From NCBI GenBank assembly GCA_946414075.1, contig CAMKNA010000005.1, positions 27,861-91,860 on the forward strand: a stretch of 64,000 bases of DNA. The letters run 5' to 3'. The position numbers were made by a program, and so were the translations under genes. The notes under the pieces are model-generated. The model had not been told where the DNA came from and searched no databases. It saw nothing but the letters and a program-made list of their open reading frames with translations. The stretch comes from an uncultured Fibrobacter sp. (GTDB taxonomy: Bacteria; Fibrobacterota; Fibrobacteria; Fibrobacterales; Fibrobacteraceae). Position 1 is the first letter of the stretch; each line of letters begins with the position of its first letter. Positions 46,706 through 63,468 of the stretch are shown here, piece after piece.

Positions 46706-47977
46706 CTATTGCTGCAAACGGAAAATCTTCACATCCTTAATATAGAATGTCCTTTCCCTGCTACCTAGATTCAGCTCAAAGCGAGCGAAGGGAGTACTCT
46801 CCTTCGGAATGAACTCGATCTCCACGGCTTTGCCCGATGTACCGACAAACACATGCTTCTGGAACCCGATGGTCTCGTAATCGTCGTAGGCGCCGATTCT
46901 TGCAGTAATCTGCCCATCCACATCGGACCAGATGGTAAACACGCACTTGTACTTCTTGCCTGCAAAAAGTGCCACATTCTCCTGAATAAGCTGGACACTG
47001 TAGGAATACCTGCCTCCTTGGGTTACCTGAACCTTGGCATAGTGTTCGCCACTGCTTTCCTCTTCTACAGAAGCCTTGGACTCACCCCCGAACTGGTCGA
47101 AGACAATCCAGCTATAGAAGTCATTGGAGAAGTCACCATTCTTAATCGTATTGTCGCTCATCGCCCCGATGATTCCTTCCCAAATGTCCAGGACATAGGT
47201 TTCGGCAACATCGCCATCGTTATCGGAGTACCCATAGCGCAGCGGCCTGAAGCTAGAGATAAACTGCTGATTCAGTTCCTTCCATATAGAAGCATTGTGT
47301 TTCGCGTCAAGATAAATCGTTCCGTCTTCAGCAACATTCACCTTGGAGAAATCAACTCCATCTACAAAATAGCGAGGGAAGAACGCCACGGACAAATTGG
47401 CAATGCTGTCCGACACCTTTTCTATCTGAGTATAGTGATAGCGAAGCTCAAATTGTTCGAGCCAAGCCAGGGAATACTGCACAGGCACATATTCGCCCTT
47501 GACCAGGAGCTTCCCATAAACCTTCGACATTTTCTTGACCGGCCTGAAGGAAACTCCCATTTCCTTCAGATAGCCCTTGTCTTCTAGACGGATATTCCTG
47601 AAAGGCTCATCCACTACAGAAGCGTCGGTAAAGGACACCGTCAAAGAAGAATCTGCAAGATCCTCGCCGGGCCACAGCTGTACGCCCTTCGACATGTCAA
47701 TATTCACTTCCGCATAATAGCTGGAGTAGGAGCGGACCTCGAAGAAATCCAGAGCGAAAGAATCCAACAGCAAAGGCTCATCCTTGGCGGCGGAGGTTTT
47801 GGAAAAAGAATTGGAGGAAACCTCGGAATAATCTACGGAGAAATCCGCCGTAAATGCCAGGGATGGATTCCCGATTTCAATCCCTGCCACAGATTTATCA
47901 TCGGAACAAGCGACAAAAGCCATGGCAGCACACGCCATAGCCAACAAAGACCCAAATTTAAACCCCGCAAAGCGCAT
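46706..47977 (-). CDS. Surface lipoprotein with C-terminal CBM4/9-like domain, paired with a DUF4423 regulator
   Basis: 423 aa. Lipobox FVAC (about Cys24), then the sequence SDDKSVAGIEIGNPSL, whose V-A-G...I-G-N motif recurs in the 57994 lipoprotein. A middle beta-rich region (about 40-270) is not recognised. From about residue 280 (NGDFSNDFYSWIVFDQFGG) a carbohydrate-binding CBM4/9-like jelly roll runs to the end. The ATG at 47977 shares one base with the regulator stop (TGATG) and has GAGGA 5 nt upstream, so translation is coupled. Predicted outer-surface glycan-binding protein; function otherwise unknown. Confidence 0.82.
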   Translation of the reverse strand: MRFAGFKFGSLLAMACAAMAFVACSDDKSVAGIEIGNPSLAFTADFSVDYSEVSSNSFSKTSAAKDEPLLLDSFALDFFEVRSYSSYYAEVNIDMSKGVQLWPGEDLADSSLTVSFTDASVVDEPFRNIRLEDKGYLKEMGVSFRPVKKMSKVYGKLLVKGEYVPVQYSLAWLEQFELRYHYTQIEKVSDSIANLSVAFFPRYFVDGVDFSKVNVAEDGTIYLDAKHNASIWKELNQQFISSFRPLRYGYSDNDGDVAETYVLDIWEGIIGAMSDNTIKNGDFSNDFYSWIVFDQFGGESKASVEEESSGEHYAKVQVTQGGRYSYSVQLIQENVALFAGKKYKCVFTIWSDVDGQITARIGAYDDYETIGFQKHVFVGTSGKAVEIEFIPKESTPFARFELNLGSRERTFYIKDVKIFRLQQ

Positions 47978-48825
47978 CACATTCCTCGGGTTAAGGGGAA
48001 CAGCTGGATGTTAACCTGAACTACATCGTCGCCTTCTCCAGCACCGGCAGAGAAATCTAGTAGTTCTTTGCGCATTAGTTGGATCTGTTTTTTCAAATTG
48101 GGGAAATCTTTGCGCCTTATGCTGAAAGTGAGGGCCGAAAAGTCCCTATCCTGGCTTGCCAGTTCGGACAACCTTTCCTTGGACATAGAGAGCATCTGCT
48201 GGTGGTACTGCTTTACCATCAGGTCCTGGACCTCGTCGTCGGTAGTGATCATGGGGTCCCGCTGGCGGAATCCATTGGCCGTCTTGACCAGGAGGCCTAG
48301 CTCCATAAGGAGGTTGAAGGACTCCTGCACCTGGGCGGGGGTCACCTTGCCATCAAGACGCTTGGAAACCCAGTCGGGAATAGGGCGGAACCCTTTCAGG
48401 GACACCATCTCCAGAATGACAGAGTGGTGCCATTCCCTGAAAATGCGGAGCTGGGCCTGGTCCATCTTGTGGAGCTTGGAATGGGGGCTTGCCTTGACCA
48501 GCTGCTCGTAATAGACCTTCTTTTCTTCGTCGTCGGTGGCCTGGTTAAAGAACACCAGATTCTCGAAGTAAGTGGCCCGCTGCTTAATAAGTCCGAGACC
48601 GTGGATAAGCTTTGTGACCGTACTCTTGGTAATGTTTCTCTTGCCGTCGATAGTCAATTTCAGGTGGGCATGACTGGAAAGACCCGCTTTTTCGGCAAAA
48701 AAACGCAAACTGAAGGCCGGCTGGGTCTTCTTCTTGTATTCGTAGTAGTCCCGAAGATACACGCGAAAATTCGTGTATTGCAACACATCGGGCTCTGTCA
48801 ATTTTACACTTTCTCCATTTTCCAT
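47977..48825 (-). CDS. TIGR02147/DUF4423 family regulator, first copy
   Basis: 282 aa from the ATG at 48825. N-terminal block FRVYLRDYYEYKKKTQPAFSLRFFAEKAGLSSHAHLKLTIDGKRNI (about 20-65, shown as an unbroken HTH-like region) is the DNA-binding-like start of the family, followed by an all-helical DUF4423 domain. The family is expanded in Fibrobacter and also found in Bdellovibrio; the function is not established but transcription control is the usual suggestion. A TTG 14 codons upstream is a weaker start. It is followed without gap by the CBM-like lipoprotein. Confidence 0.85.
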   Translation of the reverse strand: MENGESVKLTEPDVLQYTNFRVYLRDYYEYKKKTQPAFSLRFFAEKAGLSSHAHLKLTIDGKRNITKSTVTKLIHGLGLIKQRATYFENLVFFNQATDDEEKKVYYEQLVKASPHSKLHKMDQAQLRIFREWHHSVILEMVSLKGFRPIPDWVSKRLDGKVTPAQVQESFNLLMELGLLVKTANGFRQRDPMITTDDEVQDLMVKQYHQQMLSMSKERLSELASQDRDFSALTFSIRRKDFPNLKKQIQLMRKELLDFSAGAGEGDDVVQVNIQLFPLTRGM

Positions 48826-48831
48826 GCTATA

Positions 48832-48837
48832 AAAATA
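48832..48837 (-). promoter_or_regulatory. -10-like hexamer of the first DUF4423 gene, 6 nt before the start codon
   Basis: TATTTT, spacer TATAGC, then ATG 48825. No Shine-Dalgarno. Confidence 0.4.
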
Positions 48838-48885
48838 GAAGTCTAGGGGGGCAAATGCACTATCCAAAGGTTAATTATCGTTTAC

Positions 48886-54506: not shown

Positions 54507-56933
54507 TTAGCGTGTAATGCTAATCGGCCTTGCCTCACGGTAACTGCCGGAGGAAACCTTTACGATGTACATACCCGCAGGTAGCCCAGCCAAGTCAAAG
54601 GAATACGAGTGCACTCCAGCATTCAACCGGCCCGTGATTTCTTGCGCCACAAGGGCGCCATAACCCGTAAACAGGCTGATTTTCACGTTGTCCCTCTGGG
54701 GGAGCGTGTACTGCACCGTAATCATCCCGTGCTGTCTCTTGAGCTGCATATGCGTCGGAAGTCCTTCGAGACCATACATCAGGGCCGTCGTCGTTTCGCT
54801 TGCTCCGCTACCCTCTTCGTTGGTGATTGTCACCCGGACATTGAACAGCACTGAATTCTTGTCATTGGAGATTCCCTGCGTAAAGCTATAGGTTTCGCCG
54901 TTAGAAACGCGATTCGGGTAGTGGCCCACAGAAAGGGTTCCCTTCGACAAATCGGCTTCGCTGAACACGTAGGCGTTTTCGCCCCATTCAACAACCTTGC
55001 CGTCGCTTCCAAACCAGTGTCCGGGGGCGTTCGCCGTTGAACGCAGGACCTTGTTTCCTCCAGGTTCCTGAGCAAAGAAGGTCGCCTCAGAAAGGGCCGA
55101 TGCCTTAAGGCCCAATTTTTGGGCAACTTCGTCCACATTAAAATTCGCCACAACAGGAGCATAGTTTTCATCTATCGGGAGAGTAACCTTTACCTCGTAA
55201 ACTGCCGTTTCCCCCGCAGGAGCATTTGCGGAACTGCTTGATGCGGGCACGACACCGCTCGAACTTGCAAGGGTTACGCTACTTGACGATTTCGGTACGG
55301 CAGAGCTGCTCGAAGCTACAGAGCTACTGGACGCAGCCGGGACATCGCCAATTTCAGGCCAGTCATAATCCAACTTAAAGTCGTTGTAATACTTGGTGTA
55401 CGCATCACCTGCACCGCTGATGCCACTTTCAAGTTTCAACTTGTAGTCATAGTGTTTTTTTCGTATTTCCGTATTGCCCGTATATTGGAAGTCGGTATTC
55501 ACAACCACGGCAAAGACCATCTGCGTCCCGCCTGTCGAAGAAGGAGTCTTGTCAAGCCGAAGCGTCGCCGTGCCTTCACCGGTAATAGGTTCGCTGTAAA
55601 CGGGGGTACCATCGGTGGCGCGATAGCAAATCAAAAAATTCATGTTGGTATTGTTGGAATTGCTGCCGTTCGGGAAAAAGCTCACACTCACCTGCTTGGC
55701 TCCGCTCTGCACCTTGAGCGGGATATAGTTCGCGCCCGACCAGCCCGGAGTAATGTCCTGGTTCGGGACAAGGTAATCGCCGTTCGCGGTCACGCTCTGG
55801 TACGGTGTCATTTTCCAGGTGTAACTGTAGTTCTTGTTGTCCCAATAATCCTGTTCCCAGTAGGTATTGCTACCAAAATTATTATTCAGCAGGGACTTGA
55901 TCTCGTTTGACCATTTCTTCATGTCCAGGAGTGCAAGCCTTGCGCGGAATTCCGTAATCAGGCGACGAACGCCCGCTTCGCCGAGCCCCTTGTCGAGGGC
56001 GTAGGTTTCGAGCAAGTACTTTGTTTTGCCGTAAGCATTCCCGTAAATCCAGCGGACAGATCCCGTACCCAGCCAAGTTCCCATGAAGGTGGGGAAAATG
56101 TTGCTGTACTGCGAACCTCCCAAGAGGTACCTCTGATTCTTGCCCGTAACACCGCCATTATCGGCACTTCCGCCGGGTCCACCAAACGTGCCGTCGATCA
56201 ACCATCCCGAATAAGTTTCAATCGGCATAAAGGGGGCAATGACCGTTGCCGCATTCAGGAATCCCATACCACTGTAAACACCGTCGCGATGACTGAACAT
56301 ATCCTGCTGAATCCAGGTATTACCCGCTTCCTGGAACCAGTGCGCATCCTTTGCGCCGGGGTAACCGTTCGTCATCGAGTGGATTCCCTCGTGAATCATC
56401 GCATCCATCTGCGCCACACGATCGCGGTAGGGGCAACTCGTGTTAAAACTGTAGAGCGGATAGAACGAGGCTGCCACCGCCGTGTAGCCCGCCACCCATG
56501 TCTGCCAACCACCCGTGGTATCGTCCTTCGCACCACCGGCACACGTACCCGAGCCATAGTAATAAACGGCACTGTACTGGCCTTCTTGCGCCTGGGCATC
56601 CGGCGCCCATCCCATCTCATTGTACAGGTACTCGAAATCGGTATCGTACTTCTTGAGGATCGAATCAATCGTCACGTCGGTAATGCGGCTGTCGCGATCC
56701 TTGCCCCAGTAAAACGCCCACCATTTACCGGCCTTCTTTCCGGTAACGCCCGAACAATTGTTATTGAACTTGGTCGGCGGCTGAATGTCGCCCAGATTAG
56801 ACTTCGTGTCGTAATCCAGGTCGCTGCGGTAGCCGGGCCATGTGTAAGCATCGCCATTGGCGGCAAATACATCCGCTCCCATTCCGGCGACAAGTGCCGC
56901 CGCGATTATCCATCCTGTCATTTTTTTCTGCAT
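54507..56933 (-). CDS. Secreted HExxH protein with Ser-rich linkers, DUF4859-like and C-terminal sorting-type domains
   Basis: 808 aa from ATG 56933 (CAGGAG upstream). Signal peptide about 1-25. The first half carries HEGIH (181-185) and, 17 residues on, WFQEAGNTW with Glu202: a gluzincin-like zinc site, so metallopeptidase-like. A Ser/Ala/Val linker with SSSS tracts (about 570-615) follows, then a domain resembling DUF4859 (VTLPIDENYAPVVANFNVDEV...) and a C-terminal beta domain ending AGMYIVKVSSGSYREARPISITR, of the type found at the end of secreted Fibrobacter enzymes. Divergent from the second DUF4423 gene. Confidence 0.75.
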   Translation of the reverse strand: MQKKMTGWIIAAALVAGMGADVFAANGDAYTWPGYRSDLDYDTKSNLGDIQPPTKFNNNCSGVTGKKAGKWWAFYWGKDRDSRITDVTIDSILKKYDTDFEYLYNEMGWAPDAQAQEGQYSAVYYYGSGTCAGGAKDDTTGGWQTWVAGYTAVAASFYPLYSFNTSCPYRDRVAQMDAMIHEGIHSMTNGYPGAKDAHWFQEAGNTWIQQDMFSHRDGVYSGMGFLNAATVIAPFMPIETYSGWLIDGTFGGPGGSADNGGVTGKNQRYLLGGSQYSNIFPTFMGTWLGTGSVRWIYGNAYGKTKYLLETYALDKGLGEAGVRRLITEFRARLALLDMKKWSNEIKSLLNNNFGSNTYWEQDYWDNKNYSYTWKMTPYQSVTANGDYLVPNQDITPGWSGANYIPLKVQSGAKQVSVSFFPNGSNSNNTNMNFLICYRATDGTPVYSEPITGEGTATLRLDKTPSSTGGTQMVFAVVVNTDFQYTGNTEIRKKHYDYKLKLESGISGAGDAYTKYYNDFKLDYDWPEIGDVPAASSSSVASSSSAVPKSSSSVTLASSSGVVPASSSSANAPAGETAVYEVKVTLPIDENYAPVVANFNVDEVAQKLGLKASALSEATFFAQEPGGNKVLRSTANAPGHWFGSDGKVVEWGENAYVFSEADLSKGTLSVGHYPNRVSNGETYSFTQGISNDKNSVLFNVRVTITNEEGSGASETTTALMYGLEGLPTHMQLKRQHGMITVQYTLPQRDNVKISLFTGYGALVAQEITGRLNAGVHSYSFDLAGLPAGMYIVKVSSGSYREARPISITR

Positions 56934-57060
56934 AAATAACACTCCTGACATTGTCCTGCGCAATAAATAGAATCCCTTTGCCCCAAATCCCAGTTTTTTG
57001 TCACCTGTAGAAAAAGATTCCGTGTTAAAAGCGTGTAAAAGCCCTATTTTCGCCTCCATT

Positions 57061-57080
57061 TGTGTAATTTTTATTACACA
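57061..57080. promoter_or_regulatory. Operator-like palindrome in the divergent 56933/57152 region
   Basis: Perfect 20-bp palindrome TGTGTAAT-TTTT-ATTACACA. Further TGTGTAA half-sites are at 57124-57130 (same strand, next to the 57152 promoter) and GTGTAA at 57033-57038. Candidate binding site of the DUF4423 protein. Confidence 0.5.
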
Positions 57081-57136
57081 CTAAAATCAAAAACACTAAA
57101 TATTTACAAAATTTATTGATTTGTGTGTAAAAATTT

Positions 57137-57151: not shown

Positions 57152-57997
57152 GTGAGTATCGCACTGGAACATCTATTCGACTACGACGATTTCCGCAAGT
57201 TCATGCAGGATTATTTCGAAGAGCAGAAAAAAATGCGCTCCGTGTTTTCCCACCGTTTCTTTGCGGCAAAAGCCGGATTCAGCAGTTCCTCTTACTGCCT
57301 GAACGTAATTCGCGGGCGATTCAACCTTACGCACAAGTCCATCGAGAAAATTTCGAAGGCCATGGATTTCGAGCCCCTGCAAAAGGAATACTTCGAGGCA
57401 CTGGTGCAGTACAACCAGGCAGAGCAGGTGGACATCCGGGAGCAGGCGTGGAAACAGATTCTGCAAATCCGCAAGCAGATCGAGTTTACCCATGTCACCA
57501 CCCGCGAGCAGGCTTACTTTAGCAAGTGGTACTACCCTATCATACGCGAACTCGCCGTTGACCTGGACTGGCACGAAGACTACCGCGTGCTGGCACGGTC
57601 GCTCACGCCGCAAATAACGACAGAAGAAGCCCGCAAGGCGGTGAAGAACCTGCTGGAATGGGGACTCTTGAAAAAAGAGGGCGACCGCTACGAACTGACT
57701 TCGCAAATGCTTGACGCCGCAGAAATTCCACCCATTGCACTCCGGCAAATCCGACACGAGTACATACAGCATGCCATAGGTGCAGTGGAATCCATGCCCA
57801 AGGACGAACGCTTTGCTACGTTCACGACCCTTGCCATGAGCAAAAGTTCCTATGACTACGCCGTAGAAATTCTCGAGGATGCCCGCAAAAAAATTATAGC
57901 CCGCGCGTCCAACGACACCAACGTGGAGCGTATTTACGAAATGATGCTCGTGGCGTTCCCGATGAGCAAGATGCTCACGAAGGAGGACGAAGGATGA
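57152..57997 (+). CDS. TIGR02147/DUF4423 family regulator, second copy
   Basis: 281 aa, start GTG after TTTGGAG. The N-terminal FDYDDFRKFMQDYFEEQKK...FSHRFFAAKAGFSSSSYCLNVIRGRFNLT (about 8-62) matches the first copy (FRVYLRDYYEYKK...FSLRFFAEKAGLSSHAHLKLTIDGKRNIT) position by position, then both have the long helical DUF4423 part. The stop overlaps the ATG of the next gene by 4 nt (ATGA). Likely DNA-binding regulator; target unknown, but the nearby palindrome is a candidate. Confidence 0.87.
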   Translation: MSIALEHLFDYDDFRKFMQDYFEEQKKMRSVFSHRFFAAKAGFSSSSYCLNVIRGRFNLTHKSIEKISKAMDFEPLQKEYFEALVQYNQAEQVDIREQAWKQILQIRKQIEFTHVTTREQAYFSKWYYPIIRELAVDLDWHEDYRVLARSLTPQITTEEARKAVKNLLEWGLLKKEGDRYELTSQMLDAAEIPPIALRQIRHEYIQHAIGAVESMPKDERFATFTTLAMSKSSYDYAVEILEDARKKIIARASNDTNVERIYEMMLVAFPMSKMLTKEDEG

Positions 57998-59355
57998 ATC
58001 GTTTGATAGTTTGGCTTAGACAACCTTGCCATGGGTGGATGGCCGCCTTTGCCACCACCCTTGCCCTCCTCGCTTGTTCAAACAGCAACGATGTGGCTGG
58101 CGGCGTTACCGATATCGGAAATTCTGTTGCACAGGAACCAGACTCGGTAGTATTCTGCGGAACCGTAGTCAACATGCAGGGCAAAAAAATGCCCGCCGCA
58201 CGGCTTGCGCTGTATTGGGACAACGGCATTGGAATTGTCGATTCCCTGGAAACCTTTGCCGATTCCAACGCCCAGTTTGAATTCAAGATGCCCGCCGACG
58301 ATGAACATATCGGCAAGCAGGCCACGCCGGAGCTCTACCTGTACGCCGAATCGGGTGCACTTTCGGGCCTTTCTCTCCCGCCAACTCAAAAGACAGAGGA
58401 AATCCGCATCGGCACGAACAAGGCTGTCCGGGGAAGCATTTCTGGTGCAACGTCTGGATTGGTCCGTATCGGCGGAACACACCTCATGGCCGAAGTGCAG
58501 GCAGACGGATCCTTCCGTTTCGATTCGATTCCACCCGGCATACAAGAAACGTTAATTTATTCAGAAAGTGCTTCGGTGACGGGTTACATCCCGTTCTCGA
58601 TACAGGACGCCGGCGACACGCTGGTACTTCCGCAACTGGAAAACTTCGGAGGACACCTTTGGAATCCAGACCTTGACCTGCTTGGGGAAACCTACGGATT
58701 CACATCTTTCCACGCCAACGATGTAAGCGAGACCAACATCGGATGGACCACGATAGACATCGAAATGAACGGCGACGAATATGTGTTTGACCACAACGGA
58801 AAAATTGCAGACAGTGTAAATTATGTAGAGGGCGTAAGTGGCAAGGGCGTGCTGCTTGAACCGGGGCAGTATATAGACCTGGACACCCTCAACCCCACTG
58901 GCGGAGACTTCACCCTTTCGCTGTGGACAAAATGGAACGGTCCAAACGGAGAGCACCAGGCCCTGTTCTGCCAGCGCGCCTACTGGAGCGATTCCACGTC
59001 GCGGTTCCAGTGGCATTTCGAGTCGAACACCGGTTCATTCACCGTAATGAAAAGCATGCCCAACTATCCCGAAGCCATTTTCTTCGGCGATTCAACCAGT
59101 GTCCCTGTGGGAGAATGGGCGTTCCTCGTACTCGTTTCGAAAGACCACATGGTGAGCATGTTCGTAAACGGCAATCCCGTAGGCAATGCACAGGAATTTG
59201 TTCCGAATGACCTGAACCGGAGCGTTCCATTCCGCGTGGGCGGCAACGAAATTAGGACCGAGACCTGGAATGGCATAATCGACGGCGTAAGTATTGAAAC
59301 CCGCGCCCGCAGCCCCGAGTGGATAAGGGCAAAATACGAAAAAAGCAAGCCCTAG
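57994..59355 (+). CDS. Surface lipoprotein with LamG/concanavalin-like domain, paired with a DUF4423 regulator
   Basis: 453 aa. Lipobox LLAC (about Cys28) is followed by SNSNDVAGGVTDIGN, the same V-A-G...I-G-N pattern as in the 47977 lipoprotein. Two beta-sandwich regions resembling carboxypeptidase regulatory-type domains follow (about 50-125 and 135-210), then a LamG/concanavalin A-like lectin domain (about 235-453) with GDFTLSLWTKWNG, WAFLVLVSKDHMVSMFVNG and a GIIDGVSIETRARSPEWIRAKYE ending. AAGGAGG precedes the ATG, which overlaps the regulator stop. Predicted glycan-binding surface protein. Confidence 0.85.
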   Translation: MNRLIVWLRQPCHGWMAAFATTLALLACSNSNDVAGGVTDIGNSVAQEPDSVVFCGTVVNMQGKKMPAARLALYWDNGIGIVDSLETFADSNAQFEFKMPADDEHIGKQATPELYLYAESGALSGLSLPPTQKTEEIRIGTNKAVRGSISGATSGLVRIGGTHLMAEVQADGSFRFDSIPPGIQETLIYSESASVTGYIPFSIQDAGDTLVLPQLENFGGHLWNPDLDLLGETYGFTSFHANDVSETNIGWTTIDIEMNGDEYVFDHNGKIADSVNYVEGVSGKGVLLEPGQYIDLDTLNPTGGDFTLSLWTKWNGPNGEHQALFCQRAYWSDSTSRFQWHFESNTGSFTVMKSMPNYPEAIFFGDSTSVPVGEWAFLVLVSKDHMVSMFVNGNPVGNAQEFVPNDLNRSVPFRVGGNEIRTETWNGIIDGVSIETRARSPEWIRAKYEKSKP

Positions 59356-59380: not shown

Positions 59381-59682
59381 GCGCCAAAGGCGCCTGATAA
59401 ATCGCCTAGCTTTGCTAGGCAACCTCATTGCTCAAAGGAAACCGAAGGTTTCCGCGCTCATGGCTCACAGCCTGGCCGAAGGCCGAGAGGTAACCCATGT
59501 TTCGTGAAGTAAAGAAAGAAGATACGTTGCGCAAGCGCCAACTTCTTCGCCTCGGTCATGGGAGCCTGTAAACCGCCTTCCGCACTACGGTCAGTTGCAG
59601 TAAACTGCAAGCCTGTTCAGCTCGGAAATGAAAACGCAAGCGTTTTCGCTTCACTCGCTTCCATGGCTTTCGAACTTCGAAA
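59381..59682. repeat. Cluster of perfect micro-hairpins
   Basis: Seven perfect inverted repeats with loops of 1-4 nt: GCGCC-AAA-GGCGC (59381), GCCTAGC-TTT-GCTAGGC (59404), GGAAACC-GAA-GGTTTCC (59437), GGCC-GAA-GGCC (59474), TTGCAG-TAAA-CTGCAA (59595), GAAAACGC-AA-GCGTTTTC (59630) and TTTCGAA-C-TTCGAAA (59668). Confidence 0.75.
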
Positions 59683-59850
59683 CGAACCAGGGCTATAAGG
59701 ACCGTCAAGACCCGTCCCTCACGCTGTTTTTCCCGATCAACTCGAAGGTCGCCAAGTTCAAGGATACGAGCATTCTCGTGTGGACGACGACCCCGTGGAC
59801 GCTGTACTCCAACTTCTGCATCGTTGTGGGCCCGGACTACGAGCCGCTCT
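59487..59850 (+). pseudogene. ileS: Broken partial copy of ileS (isoleucyl-tRNA synthetase)
   Basis: 59487-59522 is identical over 36 bp to 63867-63902, covering the Shine-Dalgarno region and first codons of the intact ileS; after that the frame ends after 24 codons. From about 59692 a second piece encodes [19 protein letters not shown] and then [24 protein letters not shown], the editing-domain entry region of IleS (WTTTPWTL is a family signature). The pieces are separated by unrelated hairpin sequence. The internal deletion and lack of catalytic motifs make it non-functional. Confidence 0.85.
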
Positions 59851-60296
59851 CCCGCATTTCCGATGCGTTCGTGACGCCGGACCAGCTGTCCCGCCACTAC
59901 AAGAGCTGCTTTATGGAAGGGGGAAGTATCCCCCTGGTTCGCACAGCGCAAGCGTCGTTGCTCTCCACCCCTACTGCGGGGCTCAGGCGCCGCCCCGCAA
60001 AACCATGCAAGGCGAATGCCGCAGCCATGCTCGCATGGCTATGGCTGAGCCGCAGGGGTTTCTGTAACGCCCCGCTTACCCCACCCACCAATTTTCTATT
60101 TGGAATAATCCGACTTTTCTAAAAAATGCATTTTCTGCGGAAAAATTACCAGAATTGTAAATTTTTTGAACGAATTATCCATTTTTATGTTATTTTTAAA
60201 GAGTAAAAGAGTTTTTGCTCTTGTTCTCTAGATGAAATCGGGAAAATTTCAACTTACACGAGGACAAGGCGAACGCTCACGTAGATGCGTTTATCG

Positions 60297-60445: not shown

Positions 60446-60527
60446 TGCATTCTCGTAAAATTTGGCGAAGATCTTTGTGGAACAGGGTGAAAATCCAAAT
60501 ATTACCCGTTTCACAAGGAGAAACAAA

Positions 60528-62975
60528 ATGAAAAGAATCCTATGTGCATGCGCATTACTAAGCATTGCAGCATTTGCAGATACCCATCCGGCCTTGAAAG
60601 AGGCTATAGACTCCAAGAACTACAAGCAGGCAGAAAACCTGATAAAAAATGTAGGAGTCAAGGATATCTACTGCCCTGAAACTCTTGCAGCAAAAGACGC
60701 TGATAAAATCTATGGCAAAGTATTTGCCGATTCAATCGGATACCTGTTAGAAAATTGCGATGCAGTTTTTTCTAGAACCTATCTGGAATACAAATGCGCT
60801 GGTGGAAAGGATAAAGCCATGTGCCTGAATTTGGTCAACTTGACAGACCCGAATTCTTGGCCAGAAACGTATGCAAAACAATTCTGCACAAAGAAAAACG
60901 TAGAAATTTGTGCTGCCGCCGTCGAAAAGATACCCGTTGAAAAATCTGTCCCATACTTGAAAGCCATAAAGGCGAATAAGTTGGCGGAGATGAAACAGAT
61001 TAATGTAAAAGATTTTCGCTCCGGCGGAGCAACAAAAAAAGAATGCCTTCCCAAAGCAAAAGAATTGTACAATGATATGCTGGCGCAGATACAAAGAAGA
61101 ATTGATGACGCAAATTTTAATTGGCGGATGGCGAGAAATGATAACGATCGCTACAATCGCGAAAAAGAAATAAAAAGATGGGAAGAGGAGAAAAAAGAAT
61201 TAAAGGCTAAAAGTTATTCAGACTTCTGTTCTGATTTACAAGATGATGTAACTTTTGAAAAACTTAAACTAAATCAGTATTATTTTGACATACCTTTTAT
61301 GCTATTAACGGACAAGGCCGCTCGGTATTATTGGGATATACACAATCCAATAATACCCGGCCTTGCTGAAAACTGGGCTGATGTCGACAGACTTTTTGAA
61401 ATTGCAAATAAAGCTACGATAAAATCAATAGAAAGTATGAAAGACACCCTTGCCCAATTAACGGCACTTGCTGAATTCATGGGGAGATATGCTAAGTCAG
61501 CCCCATACTTTATATACAAGAAAAATATTATAGACAATATGAAGGCCTCTTTTGCAAAGAATGAAAAAATTGATTCTATTGAACAGCTCTTTTATTGTAA
61601 ACTTTATCCTTCGTTGGATAAGGAGACTGAAAAGCTCTTTGGAATGAAGATTATTGATTGCAAAGGAATGTTGGAGGAAAACAAAAAGATTGCAGAGCCC
61701 TGCGAAAATGATTCAAGATTGTTTGGTGGAAAAGTGCGCTGTATGGAGGGAAAATTTGAAAAATCTCATTGGCTCAAAGTCAATCGGTTCTTCGTGATAA
61801 ACGACTTCGATTATCAGATATCTAGTAAAGATGCCGAAAATTTGCCCGGCATGCTGAATTTCATTAAACATGGGCGACTTTATTCTTGGGAAGCAGGGAT
61901 GAAAGCTTGCCCAGACGGGAGCAGAATTCCTAACGAATCAGAAATGCAGATTATTGCTAAATACGGAAAGAATTTAATAACACCTTCAAAAGCTGGAAGT
62001 ATTTTTGAAGACAAACTAGAAGAATTTGGAACTAAAACGATTTATATGACTTCTTCTACTTGGAATGGAGAGGATTTTAGAAATGGCGGCTACACAAAAA
62101 ATTTTAATGCCGCGAAAATAGATTCTGCTGGTAATTGGAATTTAAAGAAAAGTTATATAATGAAGCGATTTGGCCGTAATAGATATTATCAACAAGTGGA
62201 GGAAAAAATAAATTTTTTGGTTTCAATTTTATGTATAGATGACGCTCGTGAAAATGACAAGTGCTCTGAAGATGAAGAAGGAACATGTTATGGAACACTC
62301 TGCTGTAAAAACGGAGTATTCAAAAAGAGCGAAGCAGAAAAAATGATTGACCCAAGAGACGGAAAGGAATACAAAACATTACGAATTGGACAACAAACGT
62401 GGATGGCTGAGAATCTGAATTACTCCGATAGTTCCACTTATGTTGGAATGAGGAATCGGTCTTGGTGTTATGACAACAAGGTCGAAAATTGCTCAAAATA
62501 TGGCCGCTTATATACATGGGCTGCCGCCATGGATAGTGCAGGGACTTGGAATACAAATGGGAAAGGATGTGGACCAGCAACGACGGACTGTTCTCCCACA
62601 TATCCTGTACGAGGAATATGCCCTGAAGGGTGGCATTTGCCCGATACTACGGATTGGAAAAAATTGTTGAACGAAATAAGTTTCAGCTCTGCTCCTACTG
62701 GCAAAGCACTTAAATCTAGCAGTGATTGGAGTGGCAACGGAAACGGCACCGATGTTATCGGCTTTTCTGCATTGCCTGCCGGTTTTTGGACTAAAAGTTG
62801 TTCCAATGATGAAGGATGCTTCGAGAAAAGAAAAAATAGCACATACTTTTGGACTTCTTCCATGTACAGTCAAGGCGTATATGGTGTGAAGTTGTCCGAT
62901 AATAGCGAAAAAACACTTGTAGATAGATTTTATAGGGAGCAAGACGGTTTCTCCGTCCGTTGCGTCAAGGACTAA
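60528..62975 (+). CDS. Secreted protein with two FISUMP-type domains
   Basis: 815 aa from ATG 60528 (AAGGAG at 60515-60520). Signal peptide MKRILCACALLSIAAFA. The N-terminus THPALKEAIDSKNYKQAENLIKNVGVKDIYC matches the start of the 21947 protein (AFREAIDNQDIATAKKMVKNG...IYC), followed by a helical Cys-rich region to about residue 440. A degenerate FISUMP-like unit (about 445-590) precedes a complete one (about 600-815) with DPRDGKEYKTLRIGQQTWMAENLNY, CYD, YGRLYTWAAAM, CPEGWHLP and SVRCV. AT-rich compared with neighbours. Function unknown; cell-surface location likely. Confidence 0.88.
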   Translation: MKRILCACALLSIAAFADTHPALKEAIDSKNYKQAENLIKNVGVKDIYCPETLAAKDADKIYGKVFADSIGYLLENCDAVFSRTYLEYKCAGGKDKAMCLNLVNLTDPNSWPETYAKQFCTKKNVEICAAAVEKIPVEKSVPYLKAIKANKLAEMKQINVKDFRSGGATKKECLPKAKELYNDMLAQIQRRIDDANFNWRMARNDNDRYNREKEIKRWEEEKKELKAKSYSDFCSDLQDDVTFEKLKLNQYYFDIPFMLLTDKAARYYWDIHNPIIPGLAENWADVDRLFEIANKATIKSIESMKDTLAQLTALAEFMGRYAKSAPYFIYKKNIIDNMKASFAKNEKIDSIEQLFYCKLYPSLDKETEKLFGMKIIDCKGMLEENKKIAEPCENDSRLFGGKVRCMEGKFEKSHWLKVNRFFVINDFDYQISSKDAENLPGMLNFIKHGRLYSWEAGMKACPDGSRIPNESEMQIIAKYGKNLITPSKAGSIFEDKLEEFGTKTIYMTSSTWNGEDFRNGGYTKNFNAAKIDSAGNWNLKKSYIMKRFGRNRYYQQVEEKINFLVSILCIDDARENDKCSEDEEGTCYGTLCCKNGVFKKSEAEKMIDPRDGKEYKTLRIGQQTWMAENLNYSDSSTYVGMRNRSWCYDNKVENCSKYGRLYTWAAAMDSAGTWNTNGKGCGPATTDCSPTYPVRGICPEGWHLPDTTDWKKLLNEISFSSAPTGKALKSSSDWSGNGNGTDVIGFSALPAGFWTKSCSNDEGCFEKRKNSTYFWTSSMYSQGVYGVKLSDNSEKTLVDRFYREQDGFSVRCVKD

Positions 62976-63060: not shown

Positions 63061-63468
63061 CTACACAGATAAAATACATGGCTCGTTGTAATAGGGAATT
63101 AAGGAGTCGTGTGTCATAAGTTTCATCCTCTCGACTTTTGCCTGACAAATTAGGATCCTGTCAAATGGGTCTTTATGTTGTTGGGGAGCGTCTTCGGAAT
63201 AAACGAGAGATTTCAGTTCAATGCAGTGATTTGGCTTTACAGGCAGGCTTTGCAAACCAGCCTTTATGCTTAGGTCGTTAAGTTCGTCACCAGAGAAATT
63301 GATGTCATCTGCATGCTTCAAAAATTTCATCTGGGTTTCCCAAATGTTTACGGAACTGTAAAAAATTTCGTTTTGGGGATTCAGCAGAATATCCCATGCT
63401 TCTTGTGGTAATGCGTCGTCGTGAGTATGAAACCAAACGAGAATGTGCGTGTCCAGAAGAATTTTCAT
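63061..63468 (-). CDS. vapC: PIN-domain toxin, VapC-like
   Basis: 135 aa predicted ribonuclease. The PIN acidic residues are present: Asp6 (LLDTHILVW), Glu44 (NIWET), Asp100/Asp103 (DPFDRIL) and Asp121 (THDSL). The Leu-Val-Trp after the first Asp and the DPFDR motif are typical of the subgroup paired with DUF2281-type antitoxins. Its ATG overlaps the antitoxin stop by 4 nt. Confidence 0.92.
   Translation of the reverse strand: MKILLDTHILVWFHTHDDALPQEAWDILLNPQNEIFYSSVNIWETQMKFLKHADDINFSGDELNDLSIKAGLQSLPVKPNHCIELKSLVYSEDAPQQHKDPFDRILICQAKVERMKLMTHDSLIPYYNEPCILSV

Follow-up and report, generated by a model that had tools for sequence, protein, structure and literature searches.

A gene-pair family in Fibrobacter that joins TIGR02147/DUF4423 regulators to lipoproteins carrying an orthogroup-specific peptide tag

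The question raised by the locus described here is what ties a putative regulator of the TIGR02147/DUF4423 family to the lipoprotein encoded directly behind it. The locus (positions 57152..59355) lies in a stretch of 64,000 nucleotides (nt), hereafter the window, from the draft genome of an uncultured Fibrobacter sp. (G000; 2.31 Mb, 65 contigs, 82% complete). The window holds two such regulator-lipoprotein pairs, referred to here as the window pair and the first pair, and in both lipoproteins a short peptide, the tag, stands behind the predicted lipid-anchor cysteine (VAGGVTDIGNSVA and VAGIEIGNPSLA, respectively). Among orthologous and paralogous loci this tag is fixed within orthogroups and different between them, and among the genomes compared its presence follows the presence of the regulator.

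Both window regulators are TIGR02147/DUF4423 members by curated cut-offs. The family libraries give TIGR02147 (Fsuc_second) and DUF4423 no function, listing them as a paralog family and a DUF. The regulator of the window pair scores 203 bits against TIGR02147 (cut-off 50; model positions 4-271 of 272 aligned) and 88 bits against DUF4423 (PF14394; gathering cut-off 30) over residues 112-271, is predicted to have the N-terminal helix-turn-helix fold of Xre-type regulators, and shows no signal peptide. It has 23 named orthologues in Fibrobacter (73-100% identity), and its closest named matches are metagenome-assembled genomes of this genus. In its partner, C28 is invariant among 19 aligned lipoproteins and stands in a lipobox typical of bacterial lipoproteins, which predicts lipidation. 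The initial annotation, made from the letters alone, had placed the pair correctly (57152-59355; regulator 57152-57997 and lipoprotein 57994-59355, both on the plus strand) and had seen the same architecture in the first pair. Gene order and direction are indeed repeated, with regulator then lipoprotein on one strand (minus in the first pair); the post-lipobox motif is real; and the C-terminal ends differ (Laminin_G_3 in the window pair, CBM_4_9 in the first). The ATGA overlap, claimed for both, exists in the window pair (57994-57997) and not in the first, where the junction is GTGA if the lipoprotein has a GTG start, or 1 nt (TGATG) if it has an ATG start. The two window regulators are only ~20% identical, and the pairs are therefore not recent duplicates; the regulator of the first pair is matched at E<=1e-60 in 55 of the 61 sampled genomes of the genus.

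TIGR02147 matches are present in all 61 of these genomes and, across the phylum, in 156 of 167 genomes and 38 of 40 genera. A full census in three Fibrobacter genomes gave 68 matches (9 in G000, 28 in G005 and 31 in G029), and a lipoprotein partner gene is located beside every one of them. For 66 of the regulators the lipoprotein start lies -47 to +59 nt from the regulator stop, with overlap in 41 cases and a commonest distance of -4 (14 cases); 60 of these partners were taken by an automatic lipobox rule and six were added by eye. The remaining two regulators, which look orthologous to one another, are transcribed divergently from an operon that holds a tagged lipoprotein. Outside the genus, where 30 of 96 matches were examined in loci from eight genomes and tags were judged by eye, a tagged partner is found at 23 loci, one of them with swapped order (lipoprotein first), and two loci are ambiguous. 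The earlier proposal that regulator and lipoprotein form a unit is thus upheld well beyond the two copies on which it was based. Tandem arrays of three pairs, ~3 kb apart, also occur (L136 and L139 on contigs C1 and C3 of G029; L117, L112 and L111 on C1 of G005).

The tag has the loose form [AS]G-x-x-[ST]-[ED]-x-x-N-x-[IV]-A, with variations, a consensus common to the pairs, and stands 1 to 20 residues from the cysteine in the 52 of 66 paired lipoproteins that fit the pattern. Because this simple pattern separates badly, passing those 52 and also 11 of 56 other lipoprotein-like open reading frames (ORFs), five of the 11 near a pair, profiles were used instead. A 46-position tag profile searched against the whole of G029 and G000 gave, at E<=1e-4, 26 matches in G029 (24 directly behind a regulator) and 8 in G000 (7 directly behind), the other three being the second lipoprotein of a paired operon, the lipoprotein of a divergent operon, and an orphan (G000:C29). 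Since many profile rows come from these two genomes, recovery of the pairs is partly by construction, and the near-absence of other matches is the informative part. The partners of 6 of the 31 regulators in G029 and 2 of the 9 in G000 fail this cut-off, and many of the weaker matches span only the signal-peptide part of the profile.

Conservation within orthogroups is much closer to the letter. The window orthogroup comprises 24 orthologous pairs (the window pair and 23 named loci, L200-L222), and all 24 share AGGVTDIGN and the closing A without exception, each site being encoded by two to four synonymous codons. Among the 17 lipoproteins kept after hand removal of near-duplicates (mean identity 49%), AGGVTDIGN is the longest invariant run (9 residues), and the signal peptide and the residues that follow drift. 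In the orthogroup of the first pair IEIGNP is fixed in 29 of 30 loci, the exception being a short, decayed-looking copy, and in another orthogroup G[TA]DE[QH] is fixed in 30 of 30 loci, with the lipoproteins at 33% identity. Each of the three orthogroups examined varies at synonymous sites; on this codon evidence, selection is acting on the tag as a peptide. The motif, whose survival in a wider alignment the initial annotation had set as a test, is kept in the paired lipoproteins of three genomes, in loci outside the genus and in orthologous loci. The tag region is modelled as disordered (predicted local distance difference test, pLDDT, below 50 in the AF2 model), and a role as the first strand of the following domain was set aside, as the tag precedes serine-rich linkers and several different domains. 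One genome (L309, G021:C23) has two matches to the regulator of the first pair, and one of the adjoining partners is short with a decayed-looking tag.

A second line of evidence comes from genomes without the regulator. With a phylum-wide tag profile, no match at E<=0.01 was found in any of 11 genomes lacking TIGR02147 (G067-G074, G089, G090, G110), a comparison weakened by the incompleteness (60-70%) of several of them, and matches were found in 9 of 9 comparison genomes with TIGR02147. Two genomes with a single TIGR02147 match have one clear tagged partner each (VAGGTSEETNALA). Of the 56 other lipoprotein-like ORFs sampled, among them the L100 partner taken from a different cysteine, only five had a tag clear to the eye, all near a pair; the lax pattern passes six more. 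These counts bear on the rival that survives best, in which the tag is a sorting or surface-export signal for a shared lipoprotein machine and the regulator only times lipoprotein production. A place behind the lipidated cysteine is where the Bacteroidota export signal lies at the N termini of surface lipoproteins (PMC5080379), and a loose consensus common across pairs would suit a shared machine. This explanation is nevertheless unlikely, given the scarcity of clear tags away from pairs and the lack of matches at E<=0.01 in regulator-less genomes, where weaker matches have little or no tag. Moreover, variants of a common signal should drift within its consensus, whereas each orthogroup freezes its own variant, and for this reason a signal read by a cognate partner is favoured over a common export signal. 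The tag as the Bacteroidota signal itself was rejected, none of the 66 paired and none of the 56 other lipoproteins having K-(D/E)2 or QA-(D/E)2.

Because the regulator stays with the tag through changes of gene order, outer part and genome, the simplest reading is that it recognises the tag of its own partner. The family is tentatively read here as a set of autoregulators, each predicted to recognise its own partner's tag, with a swappable outer domain that would bind a different glycan in each pair. The regulator would act on its own promoter as an Xre-type DNA-binding protein and would encounter the tag in the cytoplasm, on the precursor ahead of export, because the tag lies within the first ~50 residues to be translated and the two proteins are usually made from a single coupled message. 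Contact before export would also be the most likely case because the tag is part of an exported protein and the regulator itself shows no signal peptide. Expression would then be tuned to lipoprotein export by whether the regulator is tag-bound or free, and the mature lipoprotein would stand on the outer surface, holding plant-wall glycan by its outer domain, which in the window may be of an arabinan-binding type. A stronger version, in which every regulator serves as a private receptor for a single peptide, its own lipoprotein's tag, giving about thirty insulated parallel channels per fibre-degrading cell with a different plant-glycan-binding domain at the end of each, is doubtful; if true, it would constitute a new class of surface-to-gene signalling in two-membrane bacteria that needs no membrane-spanning sensor.

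The alternative to precursor contact is release and re-uptake of the tag; under both schemes the pair would amount to a surface module that adjusts itself and whose ends can be exchanged. The enterococcal peptides that act through PrgX originate in lipoprotein signal peptides. If the tag were similarly cut from the surface lipoprotein, perhaps on ligand binding, and taken up as an inducer like these sex pheromones, one would expect an orthogroup-specific linear peptide, modelled as disordered, beside a helix-turn-helix-type regulator, as is found here, and PrgX supplies a precedent. The scheme is improbable, however, as the conserved piece is behind the cysteine, outside the signal peptide, and the pair encodes no protease or importer; nor is a tetratricopeptide repeat (TPR)-like domain, which RRNPP peptide-reading regulators have behind the helix-turn-helix, evident in the regulator model, though one may have escaped the fold searches. 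An assignment of DUF4423 as a TPR domain was set aside because none was evident in these searches, which tested the C-terminal part only weakly.

Co-descent of the two genes, which the initial annotation had proposed to check, is supported by a comparison of 64 of the 66 pairs (two with incomplete regulator sequence were dropped): regulator similarity correlates with tag similarity at 0.40 and with outer-part similarity at 0.51 (0 of 2000 permutations each), the latter also reached by 0 of 2000 permutations within G005 and within G029. After removal of outer-part similarity, the tag-regulator correlation is 0.19 (0 of 2000). Signal-peptide similarity follows the regulator inconsistently (0.14 overall, 0.29 in G005, -0.14 in G029). 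These figures would also suit an ordinary paralogue expansion, in which the tag is an inherited linker of a co-transcribed pair without regulator-tag interaction, since both genes descend together and shared descent alone yields co-phylogeny. But a linker flanked by a signal peptide and outer parts that both drift would not be expected to vary least of all, and the link survives changed gene order, so that this account, too, is hard to credit.

The swapping of outer domains, likewise foreseen, is borne out by 221 of 263 within-genome lipoprotein pairs whose regulators are at least 40% identical, which have no BLAST similarity beyond the tag region, and by the different Pfam families matched. 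As an example, two G005 regulators are 79% identical and their partners bear the tags TIDPNSIAE and TVDPNTLAE; no similarity is detectable between the two outer parts. As remote likeness can escape BLAST, these counts do not separate fast divergence from true exchange. Pfam matches among the 66 lipoproteins comprise 18 to CarboxypepD_reg, 15 to FISUMP, 7 to Laminin_G_3, 3 to CBM_4_9 and 2 to pectate lyase, one protein possibly matching several families, and binding of different ligands by the different domains is a prediction. In the window lipoprotein, Laminin_G_3 is matched at residues 291-444 (71.7 bits; gathering cut-off 27.6) and CarboxypepD_reg weakly, under its cut-off, at residues 161-183. 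The model gives the outer domain a laminin-G/concanavalin fold, nearest to the arabinan-binding domain 4 of AbnA (5hon) at only 18% identity; this fold is common to many lectins and enzymes.

Control of the own operon was approached through an upstream scan of the 66 of 68 regulators with at least 100 nt upstream, a different set from the 66 with a downstream lipoprotein. The box TTTGTATCAT stands in the upstream 200 nt of 11 of these regulators and is absent from a 120 kb control; with one mismatch it is found in 18 upstream regions versus 3 sites in the control. Copies with at most two mismatches occur twice or more in 15 upstream regions, with a spacing of 70-74 nt in 9. In the G029 and G005 genomes, 10 of 12 copies are just upstream of a TIGR02147 gene (reversed pattern, 3 copies), and this near-exclusiveness to TIGR02147 promoters points to autoregulation as the probable mode in the TTTGTATCAT part of the family. 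Upstream of the regulator of the window pair lie the box TGTGTAA, shared at -27/-28 by 24 of 26 orthologous upstream regions, and an operator-like inverted repeat whose inverted arm is confined, at that place, to the window and the four loci closest to it among 25 compared.

Several points weigh against a regulator that recognises its partner's tag. Neighbourhood and conservation alone are no proof of contact between the two. The regulator model has no evident TPR-type peptide-binding domain and only a weak winged-helix likeness, in fold searches that tested the C-terminal part only weakly. Outside the genus, 5 of the 30 loci have no tagged partner in the flanks examined, and orphan tagged lipoproteins exist (G000:C29 and, probably, G029:C7). 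At E<=0.05 weak matches appear in 3 of the 11 regulator-less genomes; the ORFs concerned resemble lipoproteins and show little tag, if any, the one in G090 being faintly tag-like. The partial correlation given above is weak, and within single genomes it is 0.26 in G005 (10 of 2000 permutations) and 0.18 in G029 (42 of 2000). The box of the window group, TGTGTAAAAA, is not exclusive, only 5 of 27 copies in three genomes being at its regulator (reversed control, 18), and as it is so common elsewhere, autoregulation in the window pair is argued from position only. Lastly, the Thr-Asp-Ile codons of the tag (58109-58118 and orthologues L200-L222) are nearly fixed (ACC 23, GAT 22 and ATC 22 of 24), unlike neighbouring synonymous sites, and lie inside the palindrome CCGATATCGG, so that some DNA-level constraint is possible. 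That the stretch acts as DNA or RNA, as an operator or translational control site within the lipoprotein gene, would fit these codons and the tight gene overlap but is very improbable, since synonymous sites vary in all three orthogroups (on which ground a purely RNA or DNA site was rejected) and the tag is kept where gene order is divergent or swapped.

The features of the two pairs are collected in Table 1. Divergent from the window pair, at 54507-57059 (minus strand), is a gene for a secreted protein with DUF4859 and weak matches to DUF6055 and a T9SS-type tail, its likely start (by eye) being an internal ATG near 56933; 10 of the 23 orthologous loci have a relative, which in L221 lies on the opposite side of the pair. 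Downstream are a fragment-like reading frame (59628-60122, plus), which seems to resemble the editing domain of isoleucyl-tRNA synthetase, and a FISUMP-domain protein (60462-62975, plus; Fib_succ_major, TIGR02145, 208 bits), whose domain also occurs in 15 of the 66 paired lipoproteins. A further ORF (63061-63468, minus), starting MKILLDTHILVWF, is taken by us to be PIN-domain-like, as in VapC toxins. The two orphans, L256:3149-4690 (G000:C29) and L254:1126-2538 (G029:C7), bear the tag-like stretches SGTTETGN and HGTTEEENA, and their examined flanks contain no regulator; the G000:C29 lipoprotein adjoins, by eye, parA/parB-like genes.

Table 1. Positions of the genes, domains, tags and promoter elements of the two pairs in the window
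Feature	Position	Strand	Remarks
Regulator gene, TIGR02147/DUF4423	57152..57997	+	GTG start, 281 aa
Predicted Xre-type helix-turn-helix DNA-binding domain	57182..57436	+	Regulator residues 11-95
DUF4423 domain	57485..57964	+	Residues 112-271; first part winged-helix-like
ATGA overlap, regulator stop / lipoprotein start	57994..57997	+	Sequence
Lipoprotein gene	57994..59355	+	453 aa; also follows the regulator in 23/23 named orthologous loci
Signal peptide with lipobox LLAC	57994..58077	+	Cysteine 28 at 58075-58077
Tag VAGGVTDIGNSVA	58093..58131	+	Lipoprotein residues 34-46, shortly behind the lipid-anchor cysteine
Two predicted beta-sandwich-like domains	58144..58662	+	Residues 51-223, AF2 model
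Laminin-G/concanavalin-like outer domain	58735..59340	+	Residues 248-449
Regulator of first pair	47977..48867	-	TIGR02147, 329 bits
Lipoprotein of first pair	46706..47980	-	CBM_4_9 outer domain; start 47980 or 47977
Tag of first pair, VAGIEIGNPSLA	47855..47890	-	GIEIGNP in 29/30 orthologous loci
Operator-like inverted repeat TGTGTAAT-N4-ATTACACA	57061..57080	.	Upstream of window regulator
TGTGTAA box	57124..57130	+	28 nt before start codon, within likely promoter

Fibrobacter are gut bacteria that digest plant fibre. In F. succinogenes S85 the control of cellulase genes is described as an unanswered question, with few transcriptional regulators near these genes, in the genome paper (PMC3079729). 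Each of the three related genomes analysed here codes for between 9 and 31 regulators predicted to bind DNA, every one of them linked to a lipoprotein, and some outer ends of these lipoproteins match lectin-like, carbohydrate-binding or pectate-lyase families. Should the regulator interact with the tag, each circuit would have one peptide readable from sequence, allowing regulator inputs to be mapped and reporters of rumen fibre breakdown to be built; the tag also offers a means of picking out such lipoproteins from the large unannotated set in the phylum. In the literature searched, which comprised main texts and abstracts largely from outside subscription journals, neither the pair nor the tag was found described; there, TIGR02147 was not found and DUF4423 only as a table row for Bdellovibrio Bd3700.

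Among known systems, the Bacteroidota export signal is likewise a short peptide behind a lipidated cysteine, whereas the Fibrobacter tag is longer, varies in its distance from the cysteine, is orthogroup-specific and lacks the K-(D/E)2 or Q-A-(D/E)2 motif. The cCF10-PrgX system of Enterococcus likewise couples a short peptide to a dedicated transcription regulator, as is predicted here; it differs in peptide source and regulator fold, and tag release and uptake are here only a rival proposal. RsgI sensors carry different carbohydrate-binding domains. The SigI-RsgI pairs of Clostridium thermocellum are biomass-sensing, and their nine RsgI factors are said to sense different substrates (PMC12203970, PMC4711584). 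No sigma or anti-sigma family is above cut-off for the window regulator or lipoprotein in Pfam and NCBIfam, and RsgI is a membrane-spanning anti-sigma factor, unlike the lipoprotein and helix-turn-helix-type regulator described here. Both systems nonetheless place several paralogous pairs of a regulator and an outside sensor in one cell, and are thus alike in logic, not in parts.
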